21,583 nucleotides of DNA, taken from a virus. Under the pieces are notes generated by a model. That model saw only the letters and a program-made list of their open reading frames with translations, was not told where the DNA came from and ran no database searches. Shown in pieces: positions 3,223 through 14,260 of the stretch. The first letter of the stretch is position 1; every line of letters begins with the position of its first letter. The stretch covers positions 1 through 21,583 of IMG/VR virus record IMGVR_UViG_3300033144_002551; one strand, given 5' to 3'. Position numbers and translations under genes: made by a program.

Positions 3223-3576
3223 TCATGTATGACAGGTTCTGTCGCGTCTACGCGCCAGAGTTGTTTTGGGAACATCGAGAATGCTGCCGACAAAACGTAA
3301 ACTCAACCGCACCGTGGTGAGCATGTGGAAGATCCACTGTTCTTCCGCCGTGAGGTGATCCAGGGCGTCAGCGAGAATCTCCCGCAACTCGTCTTGCTCT
3401 GTGATGCTTTCCTCGGGTTCAACCCCAGGCGCAGACCGCATCAAAGCGTCGTAAAGGTTATCTGGGCGTCGCTGCGTCCACGGTCGAATCGATGCGTTCC
3501 CGGTGCCGGCTGGCCCTAAGAGAACATCCATCAAGTACGGGTCGGCTGTCCATGCTCCCCGCTCCGACCTACTCAA
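3223..3576 (-). CDS. Small sigma-70 region-4-like helix-turn-helix protein
   Basis: 117 aa if read from the TTG at 3576, which overlaps the previous gene's last codons; the first ATG is residue 16 (MDVLLGPAG) and is a fair alternative. The C-terminal third has LTAEEQWIFHMLTTVRLSLRF running into VGSILDVPKTTLARRRDR (about residues 75-113). This is the pattern of a sigma-70 region 4 or sigma-4-like HTH (LTxEExxV..LS.xxVA..LgVpkttlaRrrdR). No region 2 is present, so it is not a complete sigma factor. It could bind promoters or host RNA polymerase to redirect transcription. It is the last gene of the leftward operon. Confidence 0.7.
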   Translation of the reverse strand: MSRSERGAWTADPYLMDVLLGPAGTGNASIRPWTQRRPDNLYDALMRSAPGVEPEESITEQDELREILADALDHLTAEEQWIFHMLTTVRLSLRFVGSILDVPKTTLARRRDRTCHT

Positions 3577-4060
3577 TAGACGGTGCGTTCAGAAACTGCT
3601 CCCCTATGACCCGTGTGTTTTCCAGGTCGTAATGTGCCGGCTCACCCTTCTCCCACGCTTCGTCGTAGTCGATCCACCCCAGGATGTCGACGACACGAAA
3701 CTCGGGTGGCACTGGTTGCACCACCCACAGCACCAGCCCCTGCTCCAACTGCCGGCGGCGTACAGCAGCATTGGTGCTGGTCCGTACCCGACGCACCTCA
3801 ATGTTGTGGCCCACGTCAGGGAGATGCTTGTAGGTCTTGTGGTCTGACTTGTGCCACACATGCCCCGACCAGTACTGGTTGGTGATCTTGGCGACAGCGA
3901 GTTCCCCCACGCAGGCAGCAGCCTGCGCTGTGCGGTTGTCCTCCATCAGGTTCTTGTCGTAGTGGGCGGCGTCACGCTTACCCCAGTTCGCTACGAAACG
4001 ACGCGCCCCAATGTTCAAGGCATGCTCGTACTCCCAGGGATCCAGTTCGATCTGTATCAT
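3569..4060 (-). CDS. Putative PD-(D/E)XK-fold nuclease-like phage protein (163 aa)
   Basis: 163 aa, ATG overlapping the RusA stop (ATGA). Residues 42-60 (NRTAQAAACVGELAVAKI) and 80-93 (LPDVGHNIEVRRVR) give the E...PD...(D/E)xK-like layout: E53, D82 and E88, with Arg where Lys is usual. The C-terminal strand LVLWVVQPVPPEFRVV and GWIDYDEAW resemble a widespread phage protein family that I consider a diverged PD-(D/E)XK nuclease. Its place beside RusA and the primase fits DNA processing. The altered metal-binding motif leaves catalysis uncertain. Confidence 0.6.
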   Translation of the reverse strand: MIQIELDPWEYEHALNIGARRFVANWGKRDAAHYDKNLMEDNRTAQAAACVGELAVAKITNQYWSGHVWHKSDHKTYKHLPDVGHNIEVRRVRTSTNAAVRRRQLEQGLVLWVVQPVPPEFRVVDILGWIDYDEAWEKGEPAHYDLENTRVIGEQFLNAPSIE

Positions 4061-4401
4061 TTCTTCTTCCCGATCAGACGATGAACCTGGCGGTCATCGT
4101 CGTAGGCCAAACCGTTCAGAGCATCCTCGACAAGTTTCAGATAGTTGGATACATCCCCTCGTAGCATCGATCTTTCCATCTCCAGGGGTGTCAACGTGAT
4201 TGTGATCCGGTCCTTGGAGAACACGCACGCCATCGACACCGGCCCCTCAAACTTCGGTCCCTTGTACGCCTCAGCGATCACAGCCTCAGCGTCGACCGTT
4301 CCCTTCGGTGTGTAGGTGCGTCCCTTACCGAAGCGGGGACGCCCCTTGGCGCGAGGCTGCCCCCGGACAGTGAACCGGTATGTCTGCGGGTTGGGGGCCA
4401 T
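4057..4401 (-). CDS. rusA: RusA-family Holliday junction resolvase, one catalytic Asp replaced
   Basis: 114 aa from the ATG at 4401, with AGGAGG seven bases upstream; the previous gene's stop shares its first base (TGATG). RusA dimers cut four-way junctions to resolve recombination or branched replication DNA. The N-terminal GQPRAKGRPRFGKGRTYTP and the core RGDVSNYLKLVEDALNGLAYDDD are typical of the family. In E. coli RusA, D70, D72 and D91 are essential; here the aligned residues are D83, Ser85 and D102, so the middle Asp is lost. D93 and D101 are also present. The length is normal for the family. It may be active with altered metal binding, or act as a binder only. Confidence 0.88.
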   Translation of the reverse strand: MAPNPQTYRFTVRGQPRAKGRPRFGKGRTYTPKGTVDAEAVIAEAYKGPKFEGPVSMACVFSKDRITITLTPLEMERSMLRGDVSNYLKLVEDALNGLAYDDDRQVHRLIGKKK

Positions 4402-5336
4402 CAAAGTCCTCCTAGAGTGTTGTGCCTGGCGTTCGTAACAAGTTCCTCCAGGCGTTGGTTCCGGTCGTTGCGGTCTACAAACTTTCCGACACGTTCATCA
4501 AGTTCTCCGGTGAGTCGCAGGACAGTGTGGTCACTGTAGTTTTGTCTAAACAGGGAACAGGCGAAAGTATACAGGGCGTTGGAGCGGTCCTCCCGGATGT
4601 CACCCTCCCATATGCGGCGGGCTATGTAAGCGAAGTTGTCGTCGTCACGGCTACGGGTCTGTTCAACCTTCGCTATGGGCTTCAGGTGTCGTTCCTGGTA
4701 CAGGGCGTGAACGGATCGGATGGCGTGACTGGAGGCACGCGACTCCCACGCTGTTTCCACAAACTCGTCGAGGTCGTACGGCTCGTCGTCAGCGTTGATG
4801 ACTACCTGCCGGCCAGGGGCCGCCATGTTCGGGTAGGGCAGCAGTAGACAGTTCCCGAATCCTTTCCCCTCCAGAATAGTCTGCTTGGGGTACACCTCCT
4901 TGGTTGGTACATCCACCAGGCGGCATGCACCCAGCATCGCTTCACGACCCATTTCCGCTGTCAATGGCTGCCGCAGGTACACCCACAGGTGGAACCCTTT
5001 CGACCTGGATCGTTCGATCCAGCCTTGAACACCGAACCGTTGCAGCAAGCGTTGCAGGTTGCAGGCGTGAACGAAGTCGGGTTCTCCCTCGTCGAGGTCG
5101 ACCGCCAACCAGTTCACATACCATTCAGCGGTGCGTTGGTAGTCTTTCCTGAACAGGGGGTACACCCCGATAGGTGGTTCCCCCTCCAGGTGTTCCCGGA
5201 CAGCGTCCACATACTGTTCACCTTCAGCGGAGTAAGCCACCCCCTGGGGGTCAACCAGAGGACGGATGCCGTCATAGTTGGTGGCTATGCGACCGCCCTG
5301 GTGTAGCCGGGCGAAGGTGTCGGCTACGTCAACCAT
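4401..5336 (-). CDS. DNA primase, archaeo-eukaryotic (AEP) superfamily
   Basis: 311 aa. Would make primers for the helicase encoded just upstream. AEP motif I is D80-L-D82 in WLAVDLDEGE. Motif II is RSKGFHLWVYL (S112, H116). It is followed by a KEVYPKQ...GFGNCLLLPYP block (146-169), the EIFPKQ/GN.I.LP signature I associate with phage and TOTE-type AEP primases. Residues 230-305 form a helical C-terminal part (EDRSNALYTFACSLFRQ) resembling the PriCT-like regions of such enzymes. No DnaG-type zinc finger or TOPRIM domain is seen. The start overlaps the helicase 3' end by 13 bases. AEP enzymes can also polymerise DNA, so a wider role is possible. Confidence 0.82.
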   Translation of the reverse strand: MVDVADTFARLHQGGRIATNYDGIRPLVDPQGVAYSAEGEQYVDAVREHLEGEPPIGVYPLFRKDYQRTAEWYVNWLAVDLDEGEPDFVHACNLQRLLQRFGVQGWIERSRSKGFHLWVYLRQPLTAEMGREAMLGACRLVDVPTKEVYPKQTILEGKGFGNCLLLPYPNMAAPGRQVVINADDEPYDLDEFVETAWESRASSHAIRSVHALYQERHLKPIAKVEQTRSRDDDNFAYIARRIWEGDIREDRSNALYTFACSLFRQNYSDHTVLRLTGELDERVGKFVDRNDRNQRLEELVTNARHNTLGGL

Positions 5337-6915: not shown

Positions 6916-7683
6916 TTACCAGGGCGTAGAACCAAGGTGTTTCCCTCGGCATTCACCAGCCTGCCAGACAGGACACCATTGCGGAGAGCAATGCCATCCC
7001 GACCATCGCATAGGCCAGACCTTTAGATCAGATTGTATAAGAGCGGCTATCGACCAGCATAGATCCCGGAGCGCCTCAGTGTGAGGCTCTTGACGCTCGA
7101 TGCAAATGGTCTGCATCTTCCCCTTCACCAACGCCACCAGATCGAAGTCTGGTACCCCGAAAGCGAAACAGTAGACGCTGGCCTGGAGGTTCCAGCGGCG
7201 CTGCTCCCACGGCAGGTACTCACGGCTCGGGTTCTTCCAGTCCAGGATCAAACCATCCTGGACCCAGTCGGCCGTGCCGGTAAGCACTAAGCGTACGCCA
7301 TCCCGTTCATCCAGGGTGGTGCGGAAAGACTGCTCGACCCCGGTTGGAACCATCAGGTTCGGGAAACATTCTTCATGCCAGACAAAGAGATTCTTTCTGG
7401 CGACATCAACAACATTCTCAAACTCCTGATGCCACACCTTCACATCTCGGGCAAGAGCAGGTGTTATTGAATCCATGTATTCGGATGTTTCATCGAAGGA
7501 AAGCCTGTTACCCGTGTGCATTAGTTCGTTGCCGCAATACTCGATAGCGGCGTGAACCATGTTGCCTCGCAACATGTGGCTGTTCTCCTCCGAACGAACA
7601 AGACCCAGACGATCCTGGCGGGCCTGCTCCGGGCAGTTCGAGAACGTGTTCAGGAAACTCTGGCGAATCGGGATCTCGATCAT
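6916..7683 (-). CDS. Cas4/RecB-like PD-(D/E)XK exonuclease with probable Fe-S cluster
   Basis: 255 aa from the ATG at 7683; a GTG at 7701 is an alternative and neither has a strong ribosome site. It opens IEIPIRQSFLNTFSNCPEQAR, then LRGNMVHAAIEY (H44), GTADW (D139), LILDWKNPS (D148-W-K150) and LQASVYCF (Q167, Y171). This is the full H-D-(D/E)xK-QxxxY set of RecB-family nucleases. Cys17 together with C232, C237 and C245 fits the four-cysteine Fe-S arrangement of Cas4/AddB-type enzymes. The likely role is trimming DNA ends in phage recombination or degrading host DNA. It is the first gene of the replication operon, after a 150-base gap with a strong hairpin. Confidence 0.82.
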   Translation of the reverse strand: MIEIPIRQSFLNTFSNCPEQARQDRLGLVRSEENSHMLRGNMVHAAIEYCGNELMHTGNRLSFDETSEYMDSITPALARDVKVWHQEFENVVDVARKNLFVWHEECFPNLMVPTGVEQSFRTTLDERDGVRLVLTGTADWVQDGLILDWKNPSREYLPWEQRRWNLQASVYCFAFGVPDFDLVALVKGKMQTICIERQEPHTEALRDLCWSIAALIQSDLKVWPMRWSGWHCSPQWCPVWQAGECRGKHLGSTPW

Positions 7684-7790
7684 GGAACCAGTATGGCACA
7701 CGGGTGTGACAGCGGGGGCGACCCGGCCGGCGCCGCCTCGGAGAGGAAAGACGACACCGACCGAACCGCTGCCAGGCGGTGGCCCCCGTT

Positions 7791-7822
7791 ACCCCCCACC
7801 CCCCCTAAAGGGGGGTGGGGGT
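7791..7822. terminator. Long G/C homopolymer hairpin in gene gap
   Basis: CCCCCACCCCCC (7793-7804), a five-base CTAAA loop, then GGGGGGTGGGGG (7810-7821): a perfect 12-bp stem in the gap between the small-gene operon and the nuclease operon, downstream of the 7834 stop on the minus strand. There is no T tract on either strand, so it is not a classic intrinsic terminator. It could attenuate, stop RNase decay, or form a G-quadruplex. The adjoining bases up to 7834 repeat at 13671-13683. Confidence 0.6.
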
Positions 7823-7834
7823 ACGGTACCAGGT
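7822..7834 (-). repeat. 13-base repeat, copy 1
   Basis: On the minus strand this reads ACCTGGTACCGTA, starting at the last base of the preceding stop codon and running directly into the G/C homopolymer hairpin. The same 13 bases occur on the plus strand at 13671-13683, again abutting a G/C homopolymer hairpin. Confidence 0.85.
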
Positions 7835-8199
7835 CAAGCATACAGCGGCAGGTCACCGCCGGCGGGGATGACATCCGTCAACGCCACGTTGTGCATCCGC
7901 TCGTCGATGGCACGGTTCAACAGTTCGTGAGAACGCACCCGACCCACCCCGGCCAGGCGCCCAACCTCGGCGCCGTTACCCAGTTCGAGTTGTGCATCGA
8001 GCATGGCCTGCCGGCGCACAAAAGCGACCGCCATCTTCAACCCTTCCAGGTTGTGCGCTATCTCTCCGGAAAGGCGTAAAACCTGCTCGTGGTCGTCCCC
8101 GTATTCGTCTAAATGTTTCCGCATTGCGGCCCCGAATATGTTCGGTTCCGGTAGCAGATTCGTACCGAATGCGTAGATAGGTTCGGCGCCGTTACCCAC
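7834..8199 (-). CDS. Unknown small protein (121 aa), last gene of the small-gene operon
   Basis: Start chosen at the GTG at 8199, with GGGGGGAA about six bases upstream and an eight-base overlap with the previous stop. The longer frame to 8376 runs across the neighbouring real gene and reads as low-quality Ser/Arg/Pro sequence. The protein is mostly helical (AMRKHLDEYGDDHEQVLRL, GEIAHNLEGLKMAVAFVRRQ, SHELLNRAIDERMHNVAL), soluble and weakly acidic. It may form a coiled-coil or all-helical oligomer. No family is recognised. The stop merges into the 13-base repeat and hairpin that end this operon. Confidence 0.65.
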   Translation of the reverse strand: MGNGAEPIYAFGTNLLPEPNIFGAAMRKHLDEYGDDHEQVLRLSGEIAHNLEGLKMAVAFVRRQAMLDAQLELGNGAEVGRLAGVGRVRSHELLNRAIDERMHNVALTDVIPAGGDLPLYA

Positions 8200-8443
8200 G
8201 CCGTTCCCCCCATCCGCTCGACGTTGGGACCAGATGTGCTTCCTTCCGGATCGCATGGTCCAGGGCCGTGATGAGAGCCCTGATGCGGTCGATGCCGGCA
8301 GGGTCAAACAGGTATGGCTTCGCCACGATGTCGGAGAACGGGGCATGGACACCCAGCAGGGTTCGCTGGGCGTCACGGAGGCGTACCTCCATTGTCGAGG
8401 GGGTAGTTAGGAACTCCCCGTCAGGGTCTATTGGTGTTGCCAC
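8192..8443 (-). CDS. Unknown small protein (83 aa)
   Basis: GTG start at 8443 with GGGAGGT five bases upstream, one of the clearest ribosome sites on the minus strand. It starts MATPIDPDGEFLTTPSTMEV and carries helices VRLRDAQRTLLGVHA and IDRIRALITALDHAIRKEA with a basic tail. Soluble, no Cys. No family is recognised. The end overlaps the next gene's start by eight bases, so the two are probably translated together. Confidence 0.7.
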   Translation of the reverse strand: MATPIDPDGEFLTTPSTMEVRLRDAQRTLLGVHAPFSDIVAKPYLFDPAGIDRIRALITALDHAIRKEAHLVPTSSGWGERRG

Positions 8444-8445
8444 TG

Positions 8446-8706
8446 TTACCTCCCGGTAGTCGATGGCTTTGTCGGAACAGTTGTTGTCTCTACCTGTACG
8501 TCAGGGTGTCCCACTTCCAGGACGTTACCCTCTGTTTCTATCCAGATACGGGCGCCGCAACGGTCAGGCGTATCGGACTGGACGATCACGCACGGCCCCT
8601 CGATCACCAGCCAACGGTGATGGGTGGACCCCTTGTAGGTGCGGTGGATGATCGCCGGTTCCCCCTTCTTTATCTTCTGCTGGTGAACGTGGATGATGTG
8701 CTTCAT
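8446..8706 (-). CDS. Unknown small beta-rich protein (86 aa)
   Basis: ATG at 8706 overlaps the previous stop (ATGA); the stop lies just before the ribosome site of the next gene. His-rich N-terminus (MKHIIHVHQQKIKKGEPAII), then alternating strands WLVIEGPCVIVQSD, ARIWIETEGNVLEVG and VQVETTTVP, suggesting a small beta barrel. Not recognised. The pattern of strands could suit a nucleic-acid or protein-binding fold, but this is only a guess. Confidence 0.65.
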   Translation of the reverse strand: MKHIIHVHQQKIKKGEPAIIHRTYKGSTHHRWLVIEGPCVIVQSDTPDRCGARIWIETEGNVLEVGHPDVQVETTTVPTKPSTTGR

Positions 8707-8846
8707 CTCCAGGACGCCCCGATGTGGGCAGCAATCGCGGCCAGAATACGTTTTATCGTCCGCACTTCTTCGAGCAGTTCGTCGACTTTCCGCCCCTCCC
8801 TGTACGCCCTGTAGTAGTCGTCCCTGTTGTAAGAGGGGTCCGTCAT
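8703..8846 (-). CDS. Unknown very small protein (47 aa)
   Basis: 47 residues with ATGA overlaps at both ends, so it fits exactly between its neighbours. It starts MTDPSYNRDDYYRAYREGRK and continues as one charged helix (VDELLEEVRTIKRILAAIAA), a likely short coiled coil. The exact fit of both junctions and the coherent helix support a real gene. The function is unknown. Confidence 0.65.
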   Translation of the reverse strand: MTDPSYNRDDYYRAYREGRKVDELLEEVRTIKRILAAIAAHIGASWR

Positions 8847-9025
8847 TCGCCTGTTACCGCCGTAATGCAGATACGAACCAAGAAGTCGTCACCGTTGGGC
8901 GCACGATCAACGTGCGAAACGGTGACGATGTCGCCCGCAACGTCGAGGCCCAGGGAACTCCGCAGGTCATCCTCGGTCAGCAGCACCTCGTACTGCCGTA
9001 TGGTTGGCTTCGCTACTATTTTCAT
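8843..9025 (-). CDS. Unknown small protein (60 aa)
   Basis: ATG at 9025 overlaps the upstream stop (ATGA) and its own stop overlaps the next start (ATGA). Reads as a compact alpha/beta protein: strands KIVAKPTIRQYEVLLT, DIVTVSHVDRA and DFLVRICITAV around one short acidic helix. No Cys pair, no membrane segment, no recognised family. Confidence 0.65.
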   Translation of the reverse strand: MKIVAKPTIRQYEVLLTEDDLRSSLGLDVAGDIVTVSHVDRAPNGDDFLVRICITAVTGE

Positions 9026-9162
9026 CCGAAGATCGACCTAACGTTGCCGTGGTAAACGGCGAGCGGGTCCCCCTTGGCCTCCAACTCGGCAGTCTTCCGG
9101 GCTATCTCCTTCTTGAGCCACTCACCAGGAACCACTTCCTCTTTCTTCTGGTCACTACTCAT
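9022..9162 (-). CDS. Unknown small charged protein (46 aa)
   Basis: ATG at 9162 chosen over longer starts because GAGGAAG lies just upstream, and the extra N-terminal codons would encode an improbable Arg/Lys run. The protein (MSSDQKKEEVVPGEWLKKEI, then ARKTAELEAKGDPLAVYHG) is a strongly charged helix with a short tail. ATGA overlap with the next gene. Not recognised. Confidence 0.6.
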   Translation of the reverse strand: MSSDQKKEEVVPGEWLKKEIARKTAELEAKGDPLAVYHGNVRSIFG

Positions 9163-9193
9163 CTTCTTCCTCTTTCTCTTTGTCGATCTTCTC

Positions 9194-9295
9194 TTACGCC
9201 CACGCTGCCCGCAACCGGGCAGCGTCCCTGTCACGCTCGACCAGGAGAGCCTCCCGTGTCATCGTCCTGTCCTCACCCGTCGGTCGGATCATCAT
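9194..9295 (-). CDS. Unknown very small protein (33 aa)
   Basis: Start at 9295 by TGATG overlap with the previous gene (a second ATG follows at once). 33 residues: MMIRPTGEDRTMTREALLVE then an Arg/Ala-rich helix DRDAARLRAAWA. The independent ribosome site is poor, so expression would depend on coupling. A 31-base gap follows before the next gene. Either a real helical peptide or a chance frame. Confidence 0.45.
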   Translation of the reverse strand: MMIRPTGEDRTMTREALLVERDRDAARLRAAWA

Positions 9296-9555
9296 CAGTC
9301 CATCACCCGGTCGGTGTCCTTGACGCAGCCCTCGCACACGATGGTCTGACCGAACCGGATCTCGACACCGTGTTCGGCGTCGGCAACCGGGTGGTCGTAC
9401 TGCATTTCGACGGCGACATCTTCGTCGACCTCGATGCGAGCACCGCACCGCTCGCACTCACGACGCAGACACAGCATGCAGGTATCGCCCAGTGCCATGT
9501 CTGGTTCCTCGCCGGCCAGCACAGAATCGCATGGGTCACAGCAACAGGTACTCAT
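9295..9555 (-). CDS. Cys-rich, probably zinc-binding small protein (86 aa)
   Basis: ATG at 9555 (ATGA overlap) with GGGGGAAG upstream. Begins MSTCCCDPCDSVLAGEE; a second cluster CMLCLRRECERCGAR lies near residues 26-40 and a third, CEGC, near the C-terminus. Twelve or so Cys in 86 residues make metal binding likely, probably as two or more zinc knuckles. The middle is acidic (IEVDEDVAVEMQYDH). Such proteins often bind nucleic acid or host proteins, but no family is recognised. Part of a run of Cys-containing small genes. Confidence 0.7.
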   Translation of the reverse strand: MSTCCCDPCDSVLAGEEPDMALGDTCMLCLRRECERCGARIEVDEDVAVEMQYDHPVADAEHGVEIRFGQTIVCEGCVKDTDRVMD

Positions 9556-9800
9556 TCGTCTTCCCCCATCTTCTCCCAGCACGTCGGGCACAGGTACCAA
9601 TGGAACGAGCCGTTCCGCTTACGGTACGCCTGCAACAGCAACTCCCGGTCGGCCTTCGTCATCGCCGGGAACATCGTCTGGACGTACATGGAGTTGGCCC
9701 CCCGCCCGTTCATGTACGCCTCCACTGTTTGCTCTGGCGCCTCGACGGTGTCGACGCTGTCGCACTGGCGGCACGCCATCTGGATCACGGTGTCACTCAT
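9552..9800 (-). CDS. Small protein with two CxxC pairs (82 aa), zinc-ribbon-like
   Basis: ATG at 9800 preferred, with GAGAGGGG upstream and an eight-base overlap with the previous stop; the longer frame is a shadow. CRQCD sits near residues 9-13 and CPTCW near the C-terminus, the spacing of a zinc ribbon with a helical insert (TKADRELLLQAYRKRNGSF). It ends with ATGA overlap. DNA, RNA or protein binding is plausible; no family is recognised. Confidence 0.7.
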   Translation of the reverse strand: MSDTVIQMACRQCDSVDTVEAPEQTVEAYMNGRGANSMYVQTMFPAMTKADRELLLQAYRKRNGSFHWYLCPTCWEKMGEDE

Positions 9801-10044
9801 CCGGCTGCCCCTCTCGACGCTCGGTGTACGACCGGAACCCCTCAGCCATCTGCATGCAGTAGTGCCCGTGGAAGCAGTCCCAGAATGTGCCGTCGTCCGA
9901 CGACATCTGCCATGTGACGAACGGGTGGATGCCACCGTCTGTCTTGGCGAGCACCAGCCCTTGGCATGGCCGCTCACCTCGACCACCCTTCCATGTGTGA
10001 TGCAGGATCGGCTTCGCTCCGTTACGCAACGTGATATCAGCCAC
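9793..10044 (-). CDS. Unknown small protein (83 aa)
   Basis: GTG start at 10044 with GGGGGT seven bases upstream, overlapping the previous stop by eight bases; the much longer frame upstream is a shadow of the neighbouring gene. It starts VADITLRNGAKPILHHTWKG and has beta-strand sequence GLVLAKTDGG, HPFVTWQMSSDDGTFWDCFH and a His/Cys cluster (FHGHYC). The aromatic content is high. Not recognised; metal binding by the HGHYC patch is possible. Confidence 0.65.
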   Translation of the reverse strand: MADITLRNGAKPILHHTWKGGRGERPCQGLVLAKTDGGIHPFVTWQMSSDDGTFWDCFHGHYCMQMAEGFRSYTERREGQPDE

Positions 10045-10321
10045 GACCGTTACCCCCGCACCGCTGAATGTCTTCGTCTGCCAACCGGGCAATGTCGTTG
10101 TCGATCTCGTCGACCTTGTCCAACAGCGTGCCAAGGTGGGCCTGGGCCTCGCCGATCTCGCGAAGGAGGGCAGTCCGGTGCTCCTGACAACAACAGGCCA
10201 GACGGTGCTCGCGGGAGTGGATGAGGCCGTCGGTGGCCTCGCCGGCCAGGTACCGCACGGCGTTCCGGACCTTGTGGGCATCCCTCAGTCGGGCACCCAC
10301 CGATTCGCTCTGGTCTGTCAT
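10037..10321 (-). CDS. Small coiled-coil protein with CCC motif (94 aa), first gene of the leftward operons
   Basis: ATG at 10321 preferred, with AGGAG four bases before it; an ATG at 10333 would add four residues. Begins MTDQSESVGARLRDAHKVRN. It has a REHRLACCCQEH patch in the middle and a long heptad-like helix (ALLREIGEAQAHLGTLLDKV then DEIDNDIARLADEDIQ). Likely a helical dimer, perhaps metal-binding at the triple Cys. As the first gene after the divergent control region it is probably expressed earliest. The function is unknown. Confidence 0.65.
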   Translation of the reverse strand: MTDQSESVGARLRDAHKVRNAVRYLAGEATDGLIHSREHRLACCCQEHRTALLREIGEAQAHLGTLLDKVDEIDNDIARLADEDIQRCGGNGRG

Positions 10322-10397
10322 CTCGCTCCTCATCCCCACCAGACGATCCGGTGTAGAGCCCGACCGTACATCGTGAGGTATCCACCGTGCAGCGACA

Positions 10398-10424
10398 TTG
10401 ACTCGTATACACTGACCGAGTCGA
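10398..10424. promoter_or_regulatory. Inverted repeat around a TATACA box in the divergent control region
   Basis: TTGACTCG (10398-10405) and CGAGTCGA (10417-10424) are inverted arms matching at seven of eight positions, with a perfect six-base core (GACTCG/CGAGTC). The 11-base centre contains TATACACT, a plausible -10 element for the plus-strand gene at 10457. It lies in the only non-coding gap (10322-10456) between the diverging operons, so a repressor or activator site is likely. No good -35 was found on either strand. Confidence 0.45.
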
Positions 10425-10456
10425 CCACACGGCCGGCACAACCAAGGAGAGAGCAC

Positions 10457-11551
10457 ATGCACGAGATCACCGGACGCGACAACGTCCTACTCATGGAAGG
10501 CCACCCACTGTCCGGCATGGGCAACTGGCACGGCCTCGCCGAAACGCAGCAATGGGACAGCGCCATCCGGGAAGGGCTCGCCGTCGAAGACGTCAAGCGG
10601 GTACTCGGTGTCGGAGGCTGGTCAGTGCAGACCGTGCCGCTCGCCGACGCACGAACCAACCCGCCGACCCTCATCGACGGTCACGTCGGCATCGCCTGCG
10701 GCGACCAGCCCCCTCACTACTTCCCGACCAAGGCGTACGGCGTCCTCCAGAACGAGGAACTCGTCGACCTCGCCGGGGTATTCAGGGAGGCGGCACGCAT
10801 CGAGCGCGGCGTCGACCTGCCCATCCTGTCGGCGGGCACCCTGCGTGACCGCCGCATGGCGTTCGTATCCGTCGGTGTCCCCGACGACGCAGCCCTCGAC
10901 GGGCTGCCGGCCCGGTCCCACGCCATGAACCTCGGCACCAGCCACGACGGCACATGCGCATTGGTTGGCTGCCTGGCCTCATACATCGTGGTGTGCGCCA
11001 ACACGTTCCGGGCGTCGCTGCTCGGCACCGCAGTCCAGGAGGTATCCGTGCGCCACACACAGGGCATCGAAGACCTCACCGAAGCCCGCCACATCCTCCG
11101 CGACATGATCGGCGCCGCCTCCCAGACCGACGCCGCCATCGCGCGGCTGCTCGATGTCGAGTACAACGCCGGCGACCTCTGGCACGACCTCGCCGGGCAG
11201 GTTTTCCCCAAGGTGTACGTCGAGCCTGACGACGAGCAGGGCTGGACCGCAGCCCACACCAAGCAGGAGAAGCGGCTCGAAGCGATCCAGAGCGTGTACT
11301 ACAGCGACCTCGTCCCAGGCGACACCCGGCACACAGCATGGGGGGCACTCATGGCAGTACAGGGCTGGGAGCAGCACGAGCGCACCACCCGCACCGCCAA
11401 GGGTGCCCAGCCACGCCACCGCGGCGCCCTCGCCCTCCAGCGCACCGTCGCCTCATCGAGCGGCACCGGCTACCCACTGTCCGACGCCCTGATGACGACC
11501 GACCTACGCGGCCTCAACGGTGCGGACCTCGCCGGGCTGGTGAAGGCATGA
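10457..11551 (+). CDS. DUF932 family phage/plasmid-like protein (364 aa)
   Basis: ATG at 10457 with AAGGAGAGAG upstream; the frame is open further back but that part is antisense to the small-gene operon. The protein has the order I associate with DUF932 (TIGR03299): GWSVQTVPLADAR, GIACGDQPPHYFPTKAYGVL, QNEELVDL, then SHDGTCALVG, YIVVCANTF and VRHTQGIEDLTEAR, with a helical C-terminal half. DUF932 proteins are common on phages and plasmids; the biochemical role is not known. It stands alone opposite the leftward operons, with an ATGA overlap to a zinc-ribbon-like gene. Its C-rich coding strand differs from the G/T-rich packaging genes. Confidence 0.82.
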   Translation: MHEITGRDNVLLMEGHPLSGMGNWHGLAETQQWDSAIREGLAVEDVKRVLGVGGWSVQTVPLADARTNPPTLIDGHVGIACGDQPPHYFPTKAYGVLQNEELVDLAGVFREAARIERGVDLPILSAGTLRDRRMAFVSVGVPDDAALDGLPARSHAMNLGTSHDGTCALVGCLASYIVVCANTFRASLLGTAVQEVSVRHTQGIEDLTEARHILRDMIGAASQTDAAIARLLDVEYNAGDLWHDLAGQVFPKVYVEPDDEQGWTAAHTKQEKRLEAIQSVYYSDLVPGDTRHTAWGALMAVQGWEQHERTTRTAKGAQPRHRGALALQRTVASSSGTGYPLSDALMTTDLRGLNGADLAGLVKA

Positions 11552-11820
11552 CCGACTCCATCCTTCGTGCCTTCGGCATCCCCGACGACGCCATCGTCAT
11601 ACGGGACCGCATCCACGCCGGCACATGCCCCCGGTGCGGACGTATGTTCTCGATGAGGTCACCCATCGAAACCAACGCCCTGTCCCGCTGCACCCGCGGC
11701 GACGATGACACCCCACTTTACGTCTGCTCCCCGTGCGGCACCTACGAGGCATTCCAAGAAATGGCCGGCGTGCTCGATCCGCCTTCGGCCTGGGTCAACC
11801 CTCCACCCGTCACCGACTAA
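11548..11820 (+). CDS. Small zinc-ribbon-like protein (90 aa)
   Basis: ATG overlaps the DUF932 stop (ATGA). 90 residues with CPRCG (about 27-31), a lone C near 48 and CSPCG (about 60-64): two CxxC pairs about 30 residues apart, typical of a zinc ribbon. It starts MTDSILRAFGIPDDAIVIRD and has a Pro-rich end. Probably works with or is co-regulated with the DUF932 protein. Nucleic-acid or protein binding is likely; no named family is recognised. A strong hairpin lies 18 bases after the stop. Confidence 0.75.
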   Translation: MTDSILRAFGIPDDAIVIRDRIHAGTCPRCGRMFSMRSPIETNALSRCTRGDDDTPLYVCSPCGTYEAFQEMAGVLDPPSAWVNPPPVTD

Positions 11821-11837
11821 CCAAGGGGAGGTAAGGA

Positions 11838-11871
11838 ACCGGCCCGGCGCCCTGGGGGACGCCGGGCCGGT
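11838..11871. terminator. Strong GC-rich hairpin after the DUF932 operon
   Basis: ACCGGCCCGGCG (11838-11849) pairs perfectly with CGCCGGGCCGGT (11860-11871) across a ten-base loop. It sits 18 bases after the stop at 11820. No T tract follows, so termination would be of the U-less kind seen in G+C-rich hosts, or Rho-assisted. Confidence 0.6.
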
Positions 11872-12051
11872 CCGCGTTCCGGGGCACCATTACCCCTCCC
11901 AACCTCGTTCCCGGACCTCTGGTGCCCTCTGCGGTCCCTCGATCTTGGCCGATTCGGTCGATCCCGGCCCCTGGGCTCCCGTACCGGCACCGCTTACGGA
12001 TAGGTGATACCGTGAACCGGAGCCGGGCGCCCGCCCGGCAGGGAAGGAATC
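11872..12051. other. Non-coding gap with a long-range inverted repeat
   Basis: No gene is supported here. GGGCACCA (11882-11889) and TGGTGCCC (11930-11937) are exact inverted copies 40 bases apart. The end of the gap (GGATAGGTGATACC near 12000) might hold a promoter for the following gene pair, but no good -35/-10 set is clear. GGGAAGGA just before 12052 is the ribosome site of the next gene. Confidence 0.4.
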
Positions 12052-12243
12052 ATGGAACTACTCACCCTCGGGATCCAAGCGTGCTTCGTCATCTGGGCCG
12101 CCGCCCTCATCTGTCTCGCCATCCGCGAGACACGTCGAGCACTGGCCGCTCGCCGCCGGCGCCGCGCCTACTGGCAGGACCTACTCCGGTCGGCCCGCGA
12201 GGCTACGGCCCACCTCCCACCACTACCGGAGCGCCGCCCATGA
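12052..12243 (+). CDS. Small single-pass membrane protein (63 aa)
   Basis: GGGAAGGA lies five bases before the ATG. Residues 2-23 (ELLTLGIQACFVIWAAALIC) form one hydrophobic span, followed at once by an Arg-rich stretch (RETRRALAARRRRR) and a soluble tail. By the positive-inside rule the C-terminus is cytoplasmic. The stop overlaps the next start (ATGA), so it pairs with the GP88-like gene. It could anchor that protein, act in superinfection exclusion, or be a spare holin or spanin-like factor. None of these can be shown. Confidence 0.7.
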   Translation: MELLTLGIQACFVIWAAALICLAIRETRRALAARRRRRAYWQDLLRSAREATAHLPPLPERRP

Positions 12244-13205
12244 GTACCACCGCGGTAACACTCCGAACGTGGGGCATAGGGCACGCCCGCACCCTCGACG
12301 ACTGGACCGCCCTAGCGGGCCGGTTCTTATCGTCGGACCTCAAGTGCTCGCCGGTAGCCGGCACCAGTGCCGACGGGACGCCTAGGGCAAGCGATTCGGT
12401 AAGGATGGCAACGTGGCTCCCTAGTGGGCCGCCCTCACAAGGTGGAACGTGTCCGGGAGCCTCGGACTACTGCCACTCGCCGGACGGCACGCTGGTTTGC
12501 TATTCCGACCGCCTCGAGCGCTCCCGCCCGTCACTAGGCCGACTGGTCCGGGACCGCCTCGAGGTGTGGAACGCCCTATCCCAGGGCGAAAAGGTCACGC
12601 TATGCGCGGCGATCATCGGCGTTGCATACAGGGCCCAGGCGGAACCCTCGCCACTGTCGAGCCACGCCGGCCACCCTGTCGCCGCTCCGATACTCCGGAT
12701 AGGTGCAGGCGGCGACTTGGACACTTGGGCGACGGCCCAAGCATGGGCCGACGCCCTGCACTGGGCCGCCGACCGGTATCCCACCCTCCGGGCGTGGATC
12801 TACTCCCGGTCCTACTGCATCGACGGCCACGCCGGTCCCGGCGATCCGCTAGGCCCAATCGCTTACGGGATAGCCGACGGCCGGCTCCCTAACGTTTCCG
12901 CGTACCTTTCGTCGGATCCCTCGATGATCGACCGGACACGTCGAGCACTAGCCGGCCGCTACTCACACCTTCCGGTAGCCATGCTGGCGGACACTCGAGC
13001 CCAGGCGCTAGGACTCCTGGCCGACCTCGAGCGCGGTGGGCGCCCCGTTGTATGCCCAACAGAACGGGACACGCATAGGTGGCCCCTAGCCATGCGCCGG
13101 CCCGACGAGAACCACGCCCAAGGCGCCTGCGCTCGATGTCGAGCATGCATCACGCCTGCCGGCTCCCATACCATCACGCCCGACATCATCTTTATCCGCC
13201 GATAG
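12240..13205 (+). CDS. GP88-like phage protein (321 aa) with unusual base composition
   Basis: Start at 12240 by ATGA overlap; the frame is open further upstream but without coding character. Conserved Cys block GTCPGASDYC...CYSDRL (about 63-85). Then LRIGAGGDLDTWATAQAWADAL and YPTLRAWIYSRSY (about 150-190) resemble the GDxxS..Y..aW...P...fW.YTRS pattern of the phage GP88 family (PF17338), a family of unknown function. The C-terminus has a CARCRACI cluster, possibly zinc-binding. The gene holds eight CTAG tetramers in under 1 kb, against about eleven counted in the other 20 kb. With hairpins on both sides this suggests a separately acquired cassette. The family name is moderately sure. Confidence 0.65.
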   Translation: MSTTAVTLRTWGIGHARTLDDWTALAGRFLSSDLKCSPVAGTSADGTPRASDSVRMATWLPSGPPSQGGTCPGASDYCHSPDGTLVCYSDRLERSRPSLGRLVRDRLEVWNALSQGEKVTLCAAIIGVAYRAQAEPSPLSSHAGHPVAAPILRIGAGGDLDTWATAQAWADALHWAADRYPTLRAWIYSRSYCIDGHAGPGDPLGPIAYGIADGRLPNVSAYLSSDPSMIDRTRRALAGRYSHLPVAMLADTRAQALGLLADLERGGRPVVCPTERDTHRWPLAMRRPDENHAQGACARCRACITPAGSHTITPDIIFIRR

Positions 13206-13234
13206 TCCACGCCCGTCGGAGCGCATCCGGCCCC

Positions 13235-13272
13235 GGCCCCGGCTCCCACCCTCACGCCCTGGGACCGGGGCC
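13235..13272. repeat. Bulged hairpin after the GP88-like gene
   Basis: GGCCCCGG (13235-13242) pairs with CCGGGGCC (13265-13272); after one bulged C, TCCCA (13244-13248) pairs with TGGGA (13260-13264). The loop is 11 bases. It lies 30 bases after the stop at 13205 and may terminate that operon, though no T tract follows. Confidence 0.5.
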
Positions 13273-13459
13273 GCTCCGCGCCCGACGACGGAAAACTTCC
13301 GCGGCTCCTCGACGCCGGCACCCTCCCCGAACCCGTGCCCCAGGGCGATGGGTTACCGGCCGGCGACGGTCGACCGGCCCCTGCATCGAGGGCCCCCGCG
13401 TCGTTACCGCCACGTTCCCGGCCGTAACCGTGCTCGAGCGTTGCCAGGGTGATCGAGCC

Positions 13460-13495
13460 GGCGCCTGGGGCCGTGCTCGACGACGCCCAGGCGCC
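13460..13495. repeat. Perfect 10-bp inverted repeat
   Basis: GGCGCCTGGG (13460-13469) and CCCAGGCGCC (13486-13495), separated by 16 bases. A cruciform or protein-binding site in the non-coding block. Confidence 0.5.
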
Positions 13496-13666
13496 ACGCT
13501 CCGAGCCGATCCAGCCGGCGCCGGAGCCGAAGGGGGGGGACCCCAAGCCCCCACCCCCCTCCTCGTTCACTAAGTATTATTACTCCGTTGCCAGTGCGTG
13601 CAGAGATATAACCTGGTAGACGGTGCCTGTACTTGAGAGCGGTGTAGGGATCCCCCCTGTACGCTT

Positions 13667-13683
13667 CGGTACCTGGTACCGTA
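13667..13683 (+). repeat. 15-base palindrome containing 13-base repeat, copy 2
   Basis: CGGTACCTGGTACCG (13667-13681) is a perfect palindrome around a central T. Bases 13671-13683 read ACCTGGTACCGTA, identical to the minus-strand copy at 7834-7822, and run straight into a G/C homopolymer hairpin just as the other copy does. Confidence 0.8.
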
Positions 13684-13726
13684 GTGGGGGTGGGGGGGTC
13701 GCTCAAGGCGACCCCCCCACCCCCAC
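13684..13726. terminator. 19-bp perfect G/C homopolymer hairpin
   Basis: The left arm 13684-13702 (G5-T-G7 core) pairs without mismatch with 13708-13726 across a five-base loop. TTTT at 13737-13740 follows ten bases later on the plus strand. It could terminate incoming transcription before terS, form G-quadruplex DNA, or mark an origin or packaging site. Confidence 0.6.
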
Positions 13727-13740
13727 ATTACCGTAGTTTT

Positions 13741-13762
13741 GTCCCACCATTCCATTTGGGAC
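13741..13762. repeat. Short inverted repeat 31 bases before the terS start
   Basis: GTCCCA (13741-13746) and TGGGAC (13757-13762) are exact inverted copies with a ten-base spacer. Possible binding site for the small terminase or a regulator. Confidence 0.35.
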
Positions 13763-13792
13763 GCTTTAGGTAGGTCTATGGAGGTACTAAGA

Positions 13793-14260
13793 ATGGCACA
13801 GAACGGTGGGGGACGAGGATGGTCGACTGATGAGGAGTCGGGTGTGCAGACGATGCCGGATCGGTGGCGTTCACTCTTGGAGTGGGTGTTGGCGGGGCCG
13901 GAGCGTACACCGACAACTCAGAAGGCTTGGGCTGTTGAAAACGATATGCACGAGGATTCGATTCGTCGGATCAAGCGGGATGTCCGTTTTGTCCGGGAGT
14001 GGGACCGCCGGGCTGCTGAACTGAATGTTCACCCTGAGCGCACTCAGACGGTTATTGACGCTCTGTATGGTGCCGCTGCTGGCGGGGATGTGAAGGCTGC
14101 TTCGTTGTACCTTCAGTACGTTGAGAAGTTCACTCCGAAGCGTCGTGTAATCGTTGATGATGACCGTGACGCTACTGGCTTGTCGGATGCCGAGTTGGCT
14201 GACGAGTTGGAGTCCCTGGTGGCCGAGTTTCGGGATGTGTCGGTGCCTGATGGGGATTAG
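13793..14260 (+). CDS. terS: Terminase small subunit
   Basis: 155 aa from the ATG at 13793, six bases after GGAGGT; an earlier in-frame ATG at 13778 lacks a ribosome site. TerS recognises the packaging site and recruits the motor. Residues 27-75 hold the DNA-binding helices (TPTTQKAWAVENDMHEDSIR then RIKRDVRFVREWDRRAAELN). Then comes the core AVIDALYGAAAGGDVKAASL-like oligomer region (here QTVIDALYGAAAGGDVKAAS) and YVEKFTPKRRVIVDD, typical of phage small terminases. The acidic tail (ELADELESLVAEFRDV) is a usual place for motor contact. Gene order to the large subunit, portal and capsid supports it. Confidence 0.85.
   Translation: MAQNGGGRGWSTDEESGVQTMPDRWRSLLEWVLAGPERTPTTQKAWAVENDMHEDSIRRIKRDVRFVREWDRRAAELNVHPERTQTVIDALYGAAAGGDVKAASLYLQYVEKFTPKRRVIVDDDRDATGLSDAELADELESLVAEFRDVSVPDGD

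Follow-up and report, generated by a model that had tools for sequence, protein, structure and literature searches.

The 21,583-base virus record IMGVR_UViG_3300033144_002551, a sequence with linear ends that was analysed at its full length (hereafter the window), contains two copies of a 13-base element, ACCTGGTACCGTA, each running directly into a perfect hairpin in a distant gap between genes, and the question raised by this arrangement is what such a pair of sites could do in a phage genome. One site (the early site) lies ahead of the gene for a PDDEXK exonuclease, in a leftward early or replication block that also encodes a DnaB-like helicase, an AEP-type primase and RusA; the other (the late site) lies ahead of a terS-like gene in a rightward packaging and capsid block that continues with terL, portal and capsid genes. 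On balance, comparison with related sequences inclines us slightly towards the view that the two sites are matched cis-regulatory leader elements, which would head the leftward early and rightward late operons and respond to a shared regulator. The findings point to a paired control element that is undescribed so far, rather than to a G-quadruplex, a terminator or a repeat that arose by chance, and no description of a paired-hairpin element of this kind was found in our literature searches.

The 13-mer occurs exactly at 7822-7834 on the minus strand, where it begins on the final base of the upstream stop codon TGA, and at 13671-13683 on the plus strand, with no further exact copy in the record. 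The adjoining early-site hairpin (7793-7821, minus strand) has 12-bp arms and a 5-nt loop that reads CTAAA on the plus strand and TTTAG on the minus strand; the late-site hairpin (13684-13726, plus strand) has 19-bp arms and the 5-nt loop TCAAG. Folding of the two regions gave z-scores of -4.0 and -6.3. A first-pass annotation of this DNA had described the sites as a pair in opposite orientation, facing outward from the block between them, and this description holds, as do the positions of the 13-mer and the perfect 12-bp and 19-bp stems that it reported. The two hairpins are not copies of one another, because their arms stand in opposite order, with the C-run arm first at 7793-7821 and the G-run arm first at 13684-13726. 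The window contains 39 repeated exact 13-mers, so the weight of ACCTGGTACCGTA comes not from its length but from its adjoining both hairpins and recurring in relatives. The proposal that the sites mark operon borders stands in the sense that they head the early and late gene blocks; the genes flanking each gap are on the same strand, and the gaps are therefore not strand-switch borders. A third G/C-run structure, at 13532-13559 (plus strand), had been said to share the core of the two stems, and the reverse complement of this core, CCCCCACCCCCC, was located within it at 13548-13559. Scans of the window for tRNAs, Rfam families, sigma-70 promoters and terminators returned nothing, and no Rfam 15 family reached its gathering score in the window and 16 relatives.

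Relatives were gathered by a terS search (80 loci) and by exonuclease searches (26, 80 and 80 loci), and 17 long relatives, among which gene order is conserved, were read. The equivalent borders of related phages formed part of the test that the first-pass annotation had set for itself, and hairpins do recur there: they are found roughly 15-120 nt ahead of the start codon in exonuclease relatives and 65-110 nt ahead of terS in many relatives. At the early site ACCTGGTACCGTA is exact in relatives L083, L085 and L086, carries one mismatch in L092-L095, and is degraded in L088-L091, L096 and G001. The G/C homopolymers themselves are not a conserved feature, stems such as AAGAATGAAAATCTG occupying the equivalent place in relatives. 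A G-quadruplex switch, which had also been suggested, was rejected as a conserved feature; with four runs of at least three G and loops of 1-7 as the definition, a canonical G4/C4 motif is present in none of the three window structures and in 3/32 late-site stems.

The stems are paired without conservation of their letters. By stem sequence, 32 distinct late leaders fall into 14 unrelated clusters, and over 14 inner pairs 440 of 444 cells are Watson-Crick, with one G-T pair and three mismatches, a count that is biased towards pairing because leaders were selected for a hairpin with 13 or more Watson-Crick pairs. What this biased count shows is that each arm pairs with its own partner although the arm sequences are unrelated: between arms of different late leaders the mean match is 5.3 of 13 positions, and column shuffles pair at about 177 of 416 positions, compared with 413 of 416 observed. 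RNAalifold, run on an automatic alignment, recovered both late stems with little covariation because the arms misalign, and pairing was instead counted on loop-anchored leaders. Early and late stems are also unrelated to each other in sequence. Template switching during replication is described as a mechanism that creates perfect stems, maintains them and inverts loops (PMC8794818), and apparent loop inversions are seen between the window (CTCAAG) and L008 (CTTGAG), whose stems are similar, and between L180 (TTTA) and L182 (TAAA). Strict Watson-Crick pairing and loop flips would fit template-switch mutation that keeps the stem perfect, and the scarcity of G-T pairs could reflect either a DNA-level function or the outcome of template switching.

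The flanking motif varies by clade, yet in several clades it is common to both sites within one genome, being ACCTGGTACCGTA in the window, GTTTACTCAGTACC in genomes G005, G008 and G014, TACTAAGTACC in G003, TTGTAGCCTCC in G007 and a CCTAG repeat in G004. In each of these (in opposite sense in the case of G003) the two-site motif is longer than in 95% of shuffles. The 13-mer first noticed is part of a longer motif, for at the late site it overlaps a 13-bp operator-like palindrome, GGTACCTGGTACC (13668-13680, plus strand), and a partial copy, TACCGTA, lies downstream of the stem; TTACCGTAG, which follows the hairpin at 13728-13736 (plus strand), is a direct repeat of the upstream flank and has equivalents in relatives. 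Across 18 genomes, the dyad GTACYNRGTAC (GTAC[CT]N[AG]GTAC) was found eight times, every time at these two sites, and the dyad-carrying clades thus show the pattern of a phage operator pair, with a dyad at both sites and none elsewhere. In one branch the dyad GTACTNAGTAC stands on both sides of the hairpin, and 45 distinct site-hairpin-site composites were found in 2.92 Mb of sequence that was sampled around the exonuclease and terS genes, long genomes included; all 45 lie no more than 450 nt upstream of one of these two genes. The spacing between dyads in the composites is 32-44 nt, which gave no clear answer on helical phasing. Pairing of the flanks as an extension of the stem was considered and rejected, the dyad centres being complementary in 7/45 composites and identical in 34/45, so that the flanks look like direct repeats and not like a paired outer stem.

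Further signals surround each hairpin. A sigma-70 match of at least 9/12, with its -10 box ending 12 nt or less from the hairpin, is present in 11 of 20 distinct leaders of the window-type exonuclease, compared with 4.5% of shuffles. The early leader of the window contains a second stem (7725-7762, minus strand) whose homologues pair with the aid of G-U pairs, two to three per stem in L299, L306, L325 and L098, and in several other clades the loop of this stem (CTCTCCCT), read by eye, is complementary to the Shine-Dalgarno region. Upstream of the late hairpin lies a promoter-like element, TAAGTATTATTACTCCGTTGCCAGTGCGTG (13571-13600, plus strand), matched by eye as a variant of the consensus TATGTATAGATATnnAnnnnCAGTGCG found in relatives; a scan of the collection for this element gave 31 loci, and terS begins 180-299 nt downstream in 28/28 of those with enough sequence. 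The G/C-run block at 13532-13559 is located just upstream of the element, TATGTATAGATATnnAnnnnCAGTGCG in relatives is likewise preceded by such a block, and L028, L042 and L072 have perfect C-run/G-run hairpins in its place. Beyond the late hairpin a second stem, GTCCCA...TGGGAC (13741-13762, plus strand), has near-invariant letters and a variable spacer in nearly all relatives and is followed by a Shine-Dalgarno sequence, GGAGG, at 13780-13784, ahead of the terS-like gene.

In the arrangement that we favour, the short dyad-type motif, of which the 13-mer would be the version carried by the window clade, is the likely binding site of one putative regulator acting on both operons, and the perfect hairpin would lie inside the 5' leader or at its beginning, with the motif adjoining or surrounding it. 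The hairpin may act in gene expression, either by protecting the 5' end of the mRNA or by altering early elongation in a manner resembling the put sites of phage HK022, while the perfection of the stem would be maintained by template switching in replication. Both a role of the hairpin in expression and the binding of a protein by the motif are what we infer from sequence comparison. Several observations weigh against a pair of regulatory leaders. Beside the early hairpin, no strong promoter was found in the window and its subclade or in the second exonuclease branch, nor a strong sigma-70 promoter directly before the late hairpin, and about half of the distinct late leaders, mostly from distant clades, have a weaker hairpin or no long perfect one. 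In G001, G010, G012, G013, G015 and G016 there is no same-orientation two-site motif above shuffles. Finally, in several early leaders the 5' arm touches the -10 box or overlaps with it; the outer half of the stem may therefore be absent from the transcript, and this speaks for a DNA-level role in those leaders.

Such a role would be that of hairpin or cruciform sites in replication, recombination or packaging, for example as a substrate of RusA, an origin or a pac/cos site. The overlap of -10 box and arm at some early sites and the near-absence of G-T pairs would suit this explanation, as would the retention in 13 long relatives of the RusA-like Holliday junction resolvase (4057-4404, minus strand, in the window), which could act on cruciforms, and the clustering of contig ends in the terS hairpin, 11 falling within 66 bp and 30 within the 875 bp that follow. 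The missing G-T pairs can, however, be accounted for by template switching (PMC8794818), and the contig ends scatter over ~50 bp and are found at the early hairpin also, whereas the window contig reads through both hairpins, a distribution more like that of assembly breaks at hairpins than that of fixed genome ends. In addition, every dyad-hairpin-dyad composite heads the exonuclease or terS, and a second stem, in most cases with a Shine-Dalgarno sequence as well, lies downstream of each site. There is little positive evidence of a replication or recombination site, and we regard this explanation as unlikely. It is rather less probable that a sequence-free DNA hairpin (cruciform or single-strand), kept perfect by template switching and flanked by regulator dyads, serves as a structure-sensing switch through which early and late operons are coordinated. 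Covalently closed, telomere-like ends were considered but not supported, as contigs, among them the window, continue past these sites.

Bidirectional or U-less terminators insulating adjacent operons would be compatible with the GC-rich stems and with the start of the window's early hairpin 12 nt past the upstream stop codon. No T tract follows either window stem, however, so that the combination of a GC stem and a U tract expected of an intrinsic terminator is missing at both sites, as the first-pass annotation had already remarked. Its further suggestion of a phage-specific transcription stop fares poorly, because in relatives many early hairpins come directly after a -10 box and the late hairpin lies between the conserved promoter-like element and terS, inside the terS leader; termination is in our judgement improbable. 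The put sites of HK022, putL and putR, offer a different precedent, in which leader structures bind the zinc-binding domain of the beta' subunit of RNA polymerase, modify the enzyme and suppress termination. One of them comes directly after its promoter, the distance of the other being ~270 nt, and they share sequence, contain non-canonical pairs and form two stem-loops each (PMC9378689). The sites described here would be laid out in a similar way, as two leader elements with two stem-loops each on outward-facing units, one adjacent to its predicted promoter and the other farther downstream of a predicted one. In contrast to the put sites, the first stem in this phage group is sequence-free, near-perfectly paired with almost no mismatches, and flanked by repeats, and the early and late stems are unrelated. 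In view of the sequence common to the put sites and of their non-canonical pairs, we do not claim membership, and antitermination RNA of the put type seems to us quite improbable. Simple coincidence of a 13-mer with unrelated homopolymer hairpins might be entertained, given how many 13-mers are repeated in the window, but it is contradicted by relatives, in which both sites again carry hairpins and share a motif particular to the clade, and is extremely unlikely.

The matched leader elements that we favour also resemble, in part, other known systems. The boxB of phage lambda is a short stem with a loop common to nutL and nutR. These nut sites (boxA and boxB) are likewise paired and combine a linear motif with a hairpin at the heads of two operons, whereas the present stems are 10-22 bp long and the two sites differ in both stem and loop. 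Stem-loops at the 5' end of mRNA, of the type found in the T7 gene 10 leader, also lie at or near the start of a phage operon transcript (starts being predicted here), but differ from the present sites, which form a pair heading two operons and have operator-like flanks in common. Operator dyads at phage promoters are short palindromes repeated only at the two main promoter regions; here, unlike in those systems, a perfect hairpin of variable sequence lies between two dyads, and the regulator is putative.

Some relatives carry more elaborate structures upstream of terS. Tandem arrays of 5 to 9 differing perfect hairpins (arms 10-22 bp, loops 3-5 nt), occupying ~250-550 bp, are found at L034:9009-9323, L036:6-286, L042:1396-1640, L072:9178-9495 and L028:121-673, and many arms of the L028 array have a dyad half-site, ACTTAGTAC, beside the loop. 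L005:1-50 and other contigs start 69-118 nt ahead of terS, that is inside the terS hairpin; the end of L005 is pure poly-G/poly-C and appears to be a sequencing or assembly artefact.

The exonuclease (RecB-like; 6916-7683, minus strand; Pfam PDDEXK_1, 1e-8) is the first gene after the early-site hairpin, and its likely start codon is ATG 7683, where the similarity of relatives begins. In the window subclade this start is possibly leaderless (7683-7701, minus strand), a conserved CATACT resembling a -10 box being located 6 nt ahead of the ATG, where other clades have a Shine-Dalgarno sequence. The terS-like gene (13793-14260, plus strand) is the first of the packaging and capsid operon and has a weak helix-turn-helix match below the cut-off (Pfam HTH_Tnp_1_2, 3.9e-4); by its position and the terL-portal-capsid order downstream it looks like a small terminase. 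At the far end of the early operon a small protein (3223-3576, minus strand) matches a PHROG sigma factor family (7.8e-5), found no match in a Pfam search, and has relatives in 12 long genomes; it is a candidate for the trans-acting factor that may read the late promoter-like element. The AEP-type primase (4401-5336, minus strand) matches the primase domain of TOTE conflict systems (Pfam AEP-TOTE, 4.5e-15).

The carriers of the paired hairpins are a large, widespread group of uncultured marine phages. Among annotated phages there is no relative of terS, the exonuclease matches the nearest ones at 25% identity only, and at the DNA level nothing around the late site matches them. When bacterial and archaeal genomes were searched for terL, a copy with 79% identity turned up on a contig of 37,638 bases (L332, NHIM01000009.1) binned into a metagenome-assembled genome of marine Acidimicrobiaceae (TMED189), and a second copy in one assigned to Euryarchaeota; the Acidimicrobiaceae bin is a weak pointer that can only hint at the host.

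For this phage group, the two sites would constitute a first candidate for a control element that connects the replication genes with the packaging genes. Stems with free letters and strict pairing also provide a clean case in nature on which the maintenance of hairpins by template switching can be tested (PMC8794818), and the hairpin would account for the breaks upstream of terS in many assemblies of the group.

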